DNA of 64,000 nucleotides from Lacticaseibacillus rhamnosus (GTDB lineage Bacteria > Bacillota > Bacilli > Lactobacillales > Lactobacillaceae), in contig NZ_LR134331.1 in NCBI RefSeq assembly GCF_900636965.1, positions 2,046,001 to 2,110,000 of the forward strand. Reading direction: 5' to 3'. This document shows positions 2,957 to 5,135 of the stretch, piece after piece; the first letter of the stretch is position 1; each line of letters opens with the position of its first letter. The notes beneath the pieces were generated by a model. That model was not told the DNA's origin. It worked only from the letters and a program-made list of their open reading frames with translations, and searched no databases. A program made the position numbers and the translations under genes.

Positions 2957-3400
2957 TTATTGACCGCCACTGCTGGTGGTATCAGTCTCTTGGCCATTAT
3001 CAGTACCAGTTTGATCGGATGCTTGGTCGTCACTGGTCGTGGTGCTGCTTGGCGTTGAAGTGGAAACCGTTGATGCGGTCGAAGCGCTCGGCGTTGAAGT
3101 AGAAGCCTCGGTGCTCGTTGTTTCTTTTTCACCAGATGGATGACTCGCCTGTACCTGCGACTGACTTGCTGCAGCTGGCTGCGAAGTTGATGTTTGACTT
3201 GGCTCAGCTTTTGAAGACGCTGATTGCGCAGCCCGTGAAGCCGATTCGGATTTTATTTTTGAAACCAATTCACTTTGTTCGGTTGCCGATTTTGGTTGAT
3301 TGACCGGATTAATCGTATTCACAATATTATAGGCACTAATCAGGACAATGAGCGAAACAATGGCAGTCGGCGGTAATAATGGCGGTGTTCGATAAGCCAT
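2957..3400 (-). CDS. Membrane-anchored Ser/Thr-rich protein
   Basis: A 147-residue protein. A short N-terminal segment with one hydrophobic helix (about residues 10-28, VSLIVLISAYNIV) is followed by about 110 residues made almost wholly of Ser, Thr, Ala, Gln and Pro. That is the composition of an extended, possibly glycosylated, extracellular stalk. No sortase motif is present, so the N-terminal helix is the likely anchor. The start ATG at 3400 was chosen because AAAGGAG lies eight bases upstream; an upstream in-frame ATG at 3418 lacks such a site. It is probably co-transcribed with the next membrane-protein gene. Function unknown. Confidence 0.7.
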   Translation of the reverse strand: MAYRTPPLLPPTAIVSLIVLISAYNIVNTINPVNQPKSATEQSELVSKIKSESASRAAQSASSKAEPSQTSTSQPAAASQSQVQASHPSGEKETTSTEASTSTPSASTASTVSTSTPSSTTTSDDQASDQTGTDNGQETDTTSSGGQ

Positions 3401-3656: not shown

Positions 3657-4109
3657 CTACCGATTAGCGTTTTTCAAGCGATCAGCATGTTCTTGACACG
3701 CTGCGCATAAGCCGTAGAGTTCAAAATTATGGCTCTGAATCTTAGCGCCGGGTACCTGTTCTTCAAAATAATTCAAGGGACACATTTTTAATTCGATCAC
3801 TTTGCCGCAGTTGGTACAAATAAAATGATGGTGGTGCGGATGTTGAAAGTCGCACTGAAGCTTAACGACAATTTGATCGTCTTCCATACGGCTTTCAACG
3901 ATACCCATTTCAATGAACGACTTCACGTTGCGGTAAATCGTATCATGCGACACCCCTGGAAATTGCGTGCGCATATACCGATCGAGAATCGTCACCGCTG
4001 TGTACCGATGCTGATTTCTACCTAAATAATCAACCATCGATTCACGCTGCTTGGTGACGCGGTAGCCATGCTGTTTTAACTGCTTCAAAGCAATCGCTGT
4101 GTTATCCAT
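3657..4109 (-). CDS. zur: Zur-type Fur-family zinc-responsive repressor
   Basis: A 150-residue Fur-family DNA-binding protein. It has an N-terminal winged helix (about residues 10-85, including VSHDTIYRNV) and a metal-binding dimerisation half with HPHHHHFICTNCGK. The structural zinc site is CTNC (98, 101) plus CAAC (135, 138). The C-terminal text CP, then HNFELYGLC, resembles what I recall of Bacillus subtilis Zur more than PerR or Fur. The assignment is strengthened by a Zur-like box (4159-4177) in the divergent intergenic region. By family knowledge, Zur with zinc represses zinc-uptake genes and substitute zinc-free proteins. Autoregulation is plausible because the box lies about 50 bp upstream of the start. 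PerR or Fur specificity cannot be excluded by sequence alone. Confidence 0.85.
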   Translation of the reverse strand: MDNTAIALKQLKQHGYRVTKQRESMVDYLGRNQHRYTAVTILDRYMRTQFPGVSHDTIYRNVKSFIEMGIVESRMEDDQIVVKLQCDFQHPHHHHFICTNCGKVIELKMCPLNYFEEQVPGAKIQSHNFELYGLCAACQEHADRLKNANR

Positions 4110-4125: not shown

Positions 4126-4154
4126 TTGACACTTGAATTCTAGACGTGTATTCT
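4126..4154 (+). promoter_or_regulatory. SigmaA promoter for the 37-aa basic peptide gene
   Basis: A consensus -35 TTGACA (4126-4131), a 17-bp spacer and -10 TATTCT (4149-4154) on the plus strand. It reads towards the small ORF at 4218, and the Zur-like box begins just downstream of the -10. Confidence 0.75.
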
Positions 4155-4158
4155 ATCA

Positions 4159-4177
4159 AATCGTACTGGTTACGATT
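4159..4177. promoter_or_regulatory. Zur-like operator
   Basis: A perfect inverted repeat AATCGTA-N5-TACGATT centred at 4168. The recalled Bacillus Zur box is TCGTAAT-N-ATTACGA; this site keeps its outer half-sites and overall spacing and differs only at two central bases. It starts 5 bp after the -10 of the plus-strand promoter, over the expected transcription start, a repressing position. It also lies upstream of zur on the other strand. Confidence 0.7.
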
Positions 4178-4217
4178 AGCAACTTACAGTGTATCACGCC
4201 TGATAGGAGGAAGCAAC

Positions 4218-4331
4218 ATGGCTGAAAAAACCGATTACGCATCTGCTGCACGCCGTCTCAAAAGTAAAAACCCCAAAACCCGTTCACGAGCAAAACGGGT
4301 TATCAAGGCAGTTAAGAAAACGACAAAATAA
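4218..4331 (+). CDS. Small highly basic protein (37 aa), probably Zur-controlled
   Basis: A 37-codon gene starting at the ATG at 4218, with AGGAGG eight bases upstream. It has its own consensus promoter and a strong terminator 60 bp past the stop, so it is very likely a real gene despite its size. The product starts MAEKTDYASAARRLKSK and is rich in Lys, Arg, Ala and Ser (about one third basic), with no Cys or transmembrane helix. It resembles small nucleic-acid or ribosome-associated peptides in composition only. It is not a ribosomal protein I recognise, and it lacks the Cys pairs of L33, L36 or S14. Function unknown. The Zur-like box suggests expression under zinc limitation. Confidence 0.75.
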   Translation: MAEKTDYASAARRLKSKNPKTRSRAKRVIKAVKKTTK

Positions 4332-4389: not shown

Positions 4390-4431
4390 AAAGGCCTCTA
4401 ACGACAAGATTTTTGTCATTAGAGGCCTTTT
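4390..4431 (+). terminator. Strong terminator after the 37-aa gene
   Basis: Stem AAAGGCCTCTAA/TTAGAGGCCTTT, extended by a CGACAA/TTGTCA inner stem, with T-runs on both strands. It probably works in both directions and also ends the kinase-like transcript region. Confidence 0.85.
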
Positions 4432-4532: not shown

Positions 4533-5135
4533 TCACTTCTGTTCGGTGTCGACCGACAAAAAGCCACAACTTTTAAGCGCCAAGTCCTTCATGAACCGGT
4601 CAATTTGCTGTCGCGCTTCATCCCAACGATCATTTTTAATGACTGTCGCAAACGGTTTAAGTTCATCAGGCAAGGTTAAGTCGCGTTTGTATTCAGGGCT
4701 TTTCAATCGCGCTGCCACCATGTTCGGCTCATCTCCTCGACCAAGCAGGCGATCTTTCAAAACCGTGGGATCGTCAATGGTCAGAAACAAAACGACGACT
4801 TCTTTTGGCAGCTCACGAACATACGTAATCGCGCCTTTGGTATCCAAAACGATGCTTAGGAAGGGATGCTTAGCCCAGTTCTTCTCCAGCGACTCATGTG
4901 ATGACCCATATTCATAGCCGGCATAAGTGACTTTTTCAATAAAATGCTTAGTCGCAAAACTTGCCGGTGTCTCAAAATAATAATCAACCCCGTTTTGTTC
5001 TCCAGTCCGCGGTGGCCGCGTTGTGTGAGTCATCACCCGATGAATTCGGTAGTTGTCGCGCAGATACGCGCTCACCGTTGTTTTACCAGTCCCTGTTGCC
5101 CCTGTGATCACAATCAACTTATGCGCAGCCTTCAT
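4533..5135 (-). CDS. Guanylate kinase-like nucleotide kinase (paralogue)
   Basis: A 200-residue P-loop kinase of the guanylate kinase family. The P-loop GATGTGKT lies at about residues 12-19, followed by the family text THTTRPPRTGEQNGVDYYF and GYEYGSSHESL, which resembles the GMP-binding region (typical enzymes have TTRxPRxGE and YG). The housekeeping gmk would be expected elsewhere beside rpoZ, and no such context is seen here, so I read this as a second, accessory member. Its substrate could be GMP or another nucleotide. AAGGAGG lies upstream of the ATG at 5135. It probably forms its own unit. Confidence 0.8.
   Translation of the reverse strand: MKAAHKLIVITGATGTGKTTVSAYLRDNYRIHRVMTHTTRPPRTGEQNGVDYYFETPASFATKHFIEKVTYAGYEYGSSHESLEKNWAKHPFLSIVLDTKGAITYVRELPKEVVVLFLTIDDPTVLKDRLLGRGDEPNMVAARLKSPEYKRDLTLPDELKPFATVIKNDRWDEARQQIDRFMKDLALKSCGFLSVDTEQK

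Follow-up and report, generated by a model that had tools for sequence, protein, structure and literature searches.

A basic 37-residue protein divergent from zur in Lacticaseibacillus rhamnosus belongs to a family linked to genes of zinc-free ribosomal proteins

Here, we describe a gene of Lacticaseibacillus rhamnosus for a 37-residue, basic protein that is very probably under the control of the zinc repressor Zur, through what we infer to be direct binding of Zur next to its promoter. By profile score, the protein is a member of a known family that carries a placeholder name and is not a new one; the new element, as read from gene order, is the linkage of this family to the genes of three zinc-free (C-minus) ribosomal proteins, uS14, bL33 and bL32. 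This linkage points to a ribosomal function. The reading as a whole, in which a Zur-controlled basic hairpin is produced alongside the zinc-free ribosomal proteins, acting on the ribosome that contains them, is one that we hold to be moderately probable. The window referred to throughout is the whole stretch of DNA analyzed, 64,000 nucleotides in length (GCF_900636965.1, contig NZ_LR134331.1, positions 2,046,001 to 2,110,000).

Methods

Every family match in 129 Lactobacillaceae genomes was collected, the window included, yielding 148 loci with 1.5 kb or 3 kb of flanking DNA (shorter at contig ends). Start codons were picked by a simple Shine-Dalgarno rule. Zur boxes were defined by the pattern TMGTAATNATTACKA, allowing no more than 2 mismatches, up to 200 nt 5' of the gene or up to 250 nt 5' of a directly preceding rpsN2. 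The named loci cited below are the best 80 of 166 and so are not an unbiased sample, and all counts of loci and genomes ignore kinship among related genomes. Matches to ZnuC or ZnuA below 45% identity were left out of the counts because the 'ZnuC' matches at two loci, L280 and L103, fall in UvrA. Published genes were tied to the family by name or annotation.

The window locus and its regulator

The features of the locus, in window coordinates, are as follows.

3657..4109, minus strand: zur, Fur-family gene, 150 aa, divergent from the peptide gene
4126-4131, plus strand: -35 element TTGACA, by sequence match
4149-4154, plus strand: -10 element TATTCT, 17-nt spacer from the -35 element
4159-4177, no strand: Zur-box palindrome AATCGTA-CTGGT-TACGATT, just 3' of the -10 element
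4205-4210, plus strand: Shine-Dalgarno AGGAGG, from the sequence
4218..4331, plus strand: peptide ORF, 37 aa, member of NF038026 (RsaX20_sORF), 52.8 bits
4390..4430, no strand: hairpin terminator, fold z-score -7.5

The initial annotation had described a consensus promoter, a near-canonical Zur box just downstream of it and a tiny, basic, cysteine-free protein divergent from zur, and each of these elements was confirmed. The promoter (TTGACA-17-TATTCT, 4126-4154) matches the consensus at 10 of 12 positions; in the relatives L160, L163, L171 and L175, the -10 element keeps its location with varied letters, and the Shine-Dalgarno sequence AGGAGGAAGCAA is conserved. The core of the box, TCGTACTGGTTACGA (4161-4175), carries 2 mismatches relative to TCGTAATNATTACGA, and the box is sited to block the promoter, just 3' of the -10 element, as in a member of the Zur regulon. 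The ORF extends from an ATG at 4218 to a TAA at 4329-4331 and comprises 37 codons, none of them for Cys. Downstream, the hairpin at 4390-4430, reported by the terminator scan on the minus strand only, separates the peptide gene from a convergent gene at 4533-5135, whose product resembles guanylate kinase (Pfam PF00625).

When the 108-nt intergenic region was shuffled 20,000 times by dinucleotides, a box with no more than 2 mismatches arose in 6 of the shuffles. Across the genome, the window box alone is unexceptional, with 21 two-mismatch Zur sites compared to 24 for a reversed control pattern. Because such sites are no more common than the control, support for the window box comes from conservation: each of the 10 zur-divergent loci, the window and 9 relatives, has a box.

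The Fur-family protein of the window matches the Pfam FUR profile (E 9e-24) and falls under every equivalog cut-off in the NCBIfam profile search, so the name Zur is taken from orthology, from the boxes and from the published Lactobacillaceae regulon. The genome holds two Fur-family genes in total, and the window protein outscores the second paralogue at each of the 13 loci, the window among them, that have a Fur gene close to the peptide gene. Three of these loci also carry znuA (L078, L082 and L182; 126-154 bits compared to 67-71 for the paralogue). On these sequence comparisons, the window gene is best considered the Zur orthologue. The Zur regulon of Lactobacillaceae, as published, comprises znuABC, zur and rpsN2, and the peptide gene is absent from its account in the available part of that paper (PMC3616900).

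A second family copy is located at 2480869-2480964 in the same genome (66.6 bits against NF038026), in the order peptide, zinc-free S14 (NCBIfam PRK08881) and ZnuC, opposite ZnuA. The interval that separates the peptide gene from ZnuA holds two Zur boxes with 1 mismatch (2480991 and 2481132); they are two of the three 1-mismatch sites of the genome, which has no perfect site. Thus, the second copy is in a cluster with C-minus ribosomal genes whereas the window copy is not: no ribosomal gene adjoins the latter, which is tied to this setting through zur and through its sister copy. In sequence, the window copy departs from the common type, carrying KSKNPKTRSRAKRV in place of KSPNIKTRKRALKI.

Family membership, distribution and published record

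The window protein scores 52.8 bits against NF038026, for which the curated cut-off is 30; this family, RsaX20_sORF, is labeled 'putative metal homeostasis protein' in NCBIfam. Members were found in 129 of the 301 Lactobacillaceae genomes searched, in 126 of 295 genomes sampled from the order and in 31 of 398 sampled from the class, with the class-level matches beyond the order coming from 16 genomes of one genus (g105), which we presume to be Staphylococcus, and from one other genome. None of the 14 control genomes in the family, order and class searches gave a match. L. zeae and L. chiayiensis have proteins that are 97% and 92% identical to the window protein, respectively. Ten pattern matches in viral contigs were considered as possible viral members, and none was confirmed.

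In the parts of the published reports that were available, S. aureus RsaX20 has a Zur motif, is co-expressed with the Zur regulon and is retained among the bona fide sRNAs; its translation is described there as uncertain (PMC5826253, citing Mader et al. 2016). The S. agalactiae gene sak_RS00910, annotated as a putative metal homeostasis protein, is up under zinc restriction; this zinc-dependent expression is mediated by AdcR, and the function of the gene is stated there as unknown (PMC11580457). Genes of the same name are up in S. epidermidis, as are rpsN and the gene of a zinc ABC binding protein (PMC11298487), and together with an S14 gene in one medium in L. rhamnosus GG (PMC8973438); in S. 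agalactiae, transposon mutants of a so-named gene were under-represented at 1 of 5 sampling points (PMC9239048). The initial annotation had suggested a new zinc-starvation protein. That suggestion has to be given up: NF038026 covers the window protein, Zur control of RsaX20 has already been proposed (PMC5826253, as far as available) and zinc- and AdcR-dependent control of the family-annotated S. agalactiae gene has already been measured (PMC11580457, likewise).

RsaX20 (SAOUHSC_02702) and sak_RS00910 are likened to the window protein by name or annotation, not by sequence. They share with it a reported zinc-repressor box, as do 22 of 24 Streptococcus loci among the best 80 of 166 and 14 of 16 presumed Staphylococcus loci, whereas the window copy, unlike either entry, is transcribed divergently from zur and shares its genome with a common-type paralogue. 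We found no stated function for the family in the open-licence literature, and no report there of a link to ribosomal operons in a search aimed at that link only in part; no peptide-related terms were found in a paper on RpsN.2 in group A streptococcus (PMC12707111).

Zinc-repressor boxes across the family

A Zur box lies at the gene or at its rpsN2 operon in 71 of the 148 Lactobacillaceae loci and at the gene's own promoter in 51; in the former count, 60 shuffled palindromes averaged 1.4 loci and never exceeded 6. At the class level, 15 of 17 loci carry a box under the same limit of 2 mismatches (control 0.6%), namely, 14 of the 16 presumed Staphylococcus loci and the one other. Among the best 80 of 166, the AdcR box TTAACNNGTTAA with at most 1 mismatch is found in 22 of 24 Streptococcus loci (control 1.4%), and a Zur box, even with 3 mismatches allowed, in 0 of these 24. 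Judging from these sites, the gene appears to have been kept under zinc control despite a change of repressor family, and its apparent control by the unrelated repressors Zur and AdcR suggests that the need for it is tied to zinc starvation itself.

The initial annotation had also held that loss of the box from relatives retaining the gene would count against Zur control. The zur-divergent loci came through this check intact, all of them being boxed, but the family as a whole did not: 34 of 148 loci have no box at the gene's own promoter and no zinc-uptake, zur or zinc-free ribosomal neighbor in the DNA examined, and 42 of the 80 named loci (best 80 of 166), including 23 of the 28 Enterococcus loci in that set, lack Zur and AdcR boxes alike in the scanned stretch. 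At several of these box-less named loci, the gene is located downstream in a longer cluster, the promoter of which lies outside the scan.

AdcR boxes (at most 1 mismatch) show no excess in the 95 Lactobacillaceae loci that lack a Zur box (1.1% compared to 0.6%). In the 53 Lactobacillaceae loci with a Zur box, an AdcR-like box at the same threshold occurs in 11%, compared to 2.3% in controls, possibly as a result of dual control or of chance in A/T-rich promoters.

Linkage to genes of zinc-free ribosomal proteins

A zinc-free paralogue of uS14, bL33 or bL32 directly adjoins 66 of the 148 genes, on the same strand and with a gap of at most 70 nt. Extending the range to 1.4 kb yields same-strand zinc-free ribosomal genes at 72 of 148 loci, with two or three kinds present in 16; 99 of the 101 ribosomal hits within this range are on the same strand, and 103 of the 105 hits in the 148 loci lack CxxC. 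The bL33 and bL32 neighbors were assigned by Pfam, using six representatives. Among the best 80 of 166, a match to one of the three proteins was found at 35 of the 80 named loci.

S14 is directly upstream of the peptide gene in 51 loci (43 from the family and 8 from the order), with a gap of 1-33 nt in 46; the gap between L32 and the peptide is zero in five loci and is replaced by a 4-nt overlap in a sixth. One locus has the order L32-L33-S14-peptide (L010) and another L33-peptide-L32 (L138). In Enterococcus cecorum (L267), a single strand carries S14, L32, an ORF, L33, a GTPase of the CobW type, the peptide gene and a gene for an AdcA-like protein that has a ZinT-like domain; the GTPase, AdcA and ZinT matches all lie under the NCBIfam cut-offs. 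The ORF within this cluster (L267, 1420-1776) encodes 118 aa.

Of the 129 peptide-positive genomes, 126 carry the long form of S14, compared to 106 of 172 peptide-negative ones, a comparison that ignores kinship. The three exceptions are G044 (locus L181), in which S14 is partly masked, and G063 and G120, in which the peptide gene directly follows a CxxC S14. At L132 (S14 at 3123-3308, minus strand) and L146, the peptide gene comes directly after an S14 gene with two CxxC motifs; in this, these two differ from the remaining 63 of the 65 S14 genes that adjoin the peptide gene.

Zinc-uptake genes are neighbors as well: ZnuA, at 45% identity or more, is found in 28 of 148 loci, and in many Enterococcus loci among the best 80 of 166 a weak ZnuA/AdcA-type match begins 130-150 nt past the peptide start.

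Protein properties and constraint

Across the 148 members, the net charge ranges from +5 to +14 (median +10) and the length from 32 to 53 residues, Cys occurs in 7 and the protein is probably not a metal binder; nine positions are invariant among 47 aligned members. The window protein is predicted to be a small basic helical hairpin, modeled by AlphaFold2 as helix 7-13, a turn and helix 19-36 (mean pLDDT 86.5, pTM 0.57), with the predicted turn at the conserved S-x-N.

Comparison of the window copy with four close relatives gives pS of 0.49-0.70 and pN of 0.024-0.060, and with a more distant fifth (L164), 0.88 and 0.185, respectively; for the second copy and four relatives, pS is 0.76-1.02 and pN 0.044-0.082. 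By this measure, constraint acts on the protein, and the ORF behaves as a coding sequence.

As the initial annotation had stated, the peptide is not a recognizable paralogue of a ribosomal protein. The window protein has no ribosomal Pfam match, and the only such match among the 47 members is to S21, in a single member (E 0.021); this match, as well as those to TAN in 7 members (best E 0.0096) and to HEAT in 1 (E 0.1), was taken as chance. Foldseek searches with the predicted fold returned no match at E 0.001 or better, the best VIA-align Z of 4.5 is typical of a common arrangement of helices, and the solved chains offered no convincing sequence match. A search of PHROGs gave one unnamed family at E 0.095.

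Discussion

The following course of events would fit these data. In the presence of zinc, Zn-Zur would occupy the box just 3' of the -10 element and block transcription. Upon exhaustion of zinc, the 37-residue protein would be made alongside the zinc uptake genes, the zinc-free S14 and the second copy; it may then bind rRNA and act on the ribosome remodeled by zinc starvation, helping to assemble, stabilize or tune particles that carry C-minus uS14, bL33 and bL32. Ribosomal action of the protein, which we infer from gene neighborhood, we place just on the probable side. Assembly, stabilization, exchange and hibernation are not separated by the present evidence.

The zinc-free paralogues themselves (RpsN2/S14, RpmG-type L33 and RpmF-type L32) resemble the peptide in being controlled by zinc repressors, small, basic, poor in Cys and often co-clustered; unlike them, the peptide is no ribosomal paralogue by Pfam and is predicted to form a two-helix hairpin. 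Another parallel is MPY, a mycobacterial zinc-starvation ribosome factor that is recruited by the CobW-type GTPase MRF. MPY is made with C-minus ribosomal proteins, and the E. cecorum cluster likewise includes a CobW-type GTPase, although the latter scores 22.8 bits compared to the MRF cut-off of 375 and is also under the cut-offs of the other GTPase models; the likeness of MPY to the peptide is one of context, and no sequence relation is claimed.

Genes of the C-minus type also occur without the peptide, as the long S14 does in the 106 peptide-negative genomes counted above. Co-location with the C-minus genes may reflect only a shared zinc regulon, given that the peptide gene also neighbors znuA/adcA. 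For this reason, the main alternative, although an unlikely one, is that the peptide regulates zinc import or Zur, binding ZnuABC/AdcABC or the repressor and tuning uptake in starvation. The ten zur-divergent loci with their shared box, the 28 loci with ZnuA and, among the best 80 of 166, the many Enterococcus loci with a weak ZnuA/AdcA-type match, along with the AdcA-like protein in E. cecorum, would be in keeping with such a role, but the C-minus ribosomal genes that adjoin 66 of 148 genes are of three kinds, and the peptide is highly charged, with no membrane segment by eye. It is rather improbable that the peptide instead frees zinc from the ribosomal proteins that carry it, by displacing or unfolding them, the exchange itself being its job. 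The same operon linkage speaks for this, and the S14 with two CxxC that the peptide follows at L132 and L146 would suit it; however, there is no conserved metal ligand (Cys in only 7 of 148 members), and nothing sets this possibility apart from action on the zinc-free ribosome. We likewise doubt that the peptide is an overlooked subunit of the zinc-starved ribosome, a non-homologous, zinc-free stand-in for a zinc ribosomal protein that lacks a zinc-free paralogue. The best candidate for such replacement is bL36, a zinc ribbon that is basic, spans 38 model positions and was found as a single copy in every one of the 21 genomes searched, with CxxC read in 20. Size, charge and the absence of a second zinc-free bL36 all fit, but the predicted fold of the peptide differs from the bL36 zinc ribbon.

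That the RNA is the active product and the ORF incidental could be supposed from the listing of RsaX20 among bona fide small RNAs with uncertain translation (PMC5826253, in the part available), yet in both copies the protein is kept while synonymous sites are heavily changed, and the Shine-Dalgarno sequence is conserved in close relatives, making this very improbable; the transcript may still play a part of its own alongside the protein. Hardly credible at all is a cationic antimicrobial or bacteriocin-like peptide deployed under zinc limitation: a small, basic and predicted helical product would qualify, but its frequent operon partners, ribosomal and zinc-uptake genes, are ill-suited to an exported one.

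The family spans Lactobacillaceae, enterococci, streptococci and the presumed Staphylococcus. From its zinc-free ribosomal gene setting, the label 'putative metal homeostasis protein' can be recast as a statement on the ribosome that is open to testing, both in food bacteria and in pathogens that face zinc withholding by the host.

Zinc-unlinked loci and other sites

Many of the 34 zinc-unlinked loci are Leuconostoc-type copies. The gene beside two of these (L280 and L103) we take, from its sequence, to be uvrA; the 'ZnuC' matches of 31-41% identity near many Leuconostoc-type copies fall in UvrA at these two loci and were rejected. Two genomes, G016 and G085, have a zinc-unlinked copy plus a second, zur-divergent one, which suggests that some family members may have taken on a different role. 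At the Leuconostoc-type paralogues L094-L096, L115, L136, L075 and similar loci, ACTTAY-N5-GTAAGT or a close variant lies near a TATACT-like -10 element, with no Zur box. This pattern has 2-3 hits per genome on both strands, compared to 0-2 for the control. Three other sites were inspected: L306 has no ORF of at least 80 aa, and the ORFs at L304 and L301 are not zinc-uptake-like by eye. The counts are barely above the control. No regulon was inferred for this pattern.

Several further sites were noted in the L. rhamnosus genome. Sites L004 and L005 both lie within ORFs and were taken as chance. The third 1-mismatch Zur site, at G000:C1:26259-26273 (L002), is about 200 nt upstream of an ORF (1701-2810) that, from its sequence, we take to encode an AmtB-type ammonium transporter. 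The AdcR regulon of S. agalactiae, in the available part of its description, includes a potential ammonium transporter (PMC11580457). Besides the Zur-linked S14 gene, another long-type S14 gene is located at G000:C1:913073-913339.
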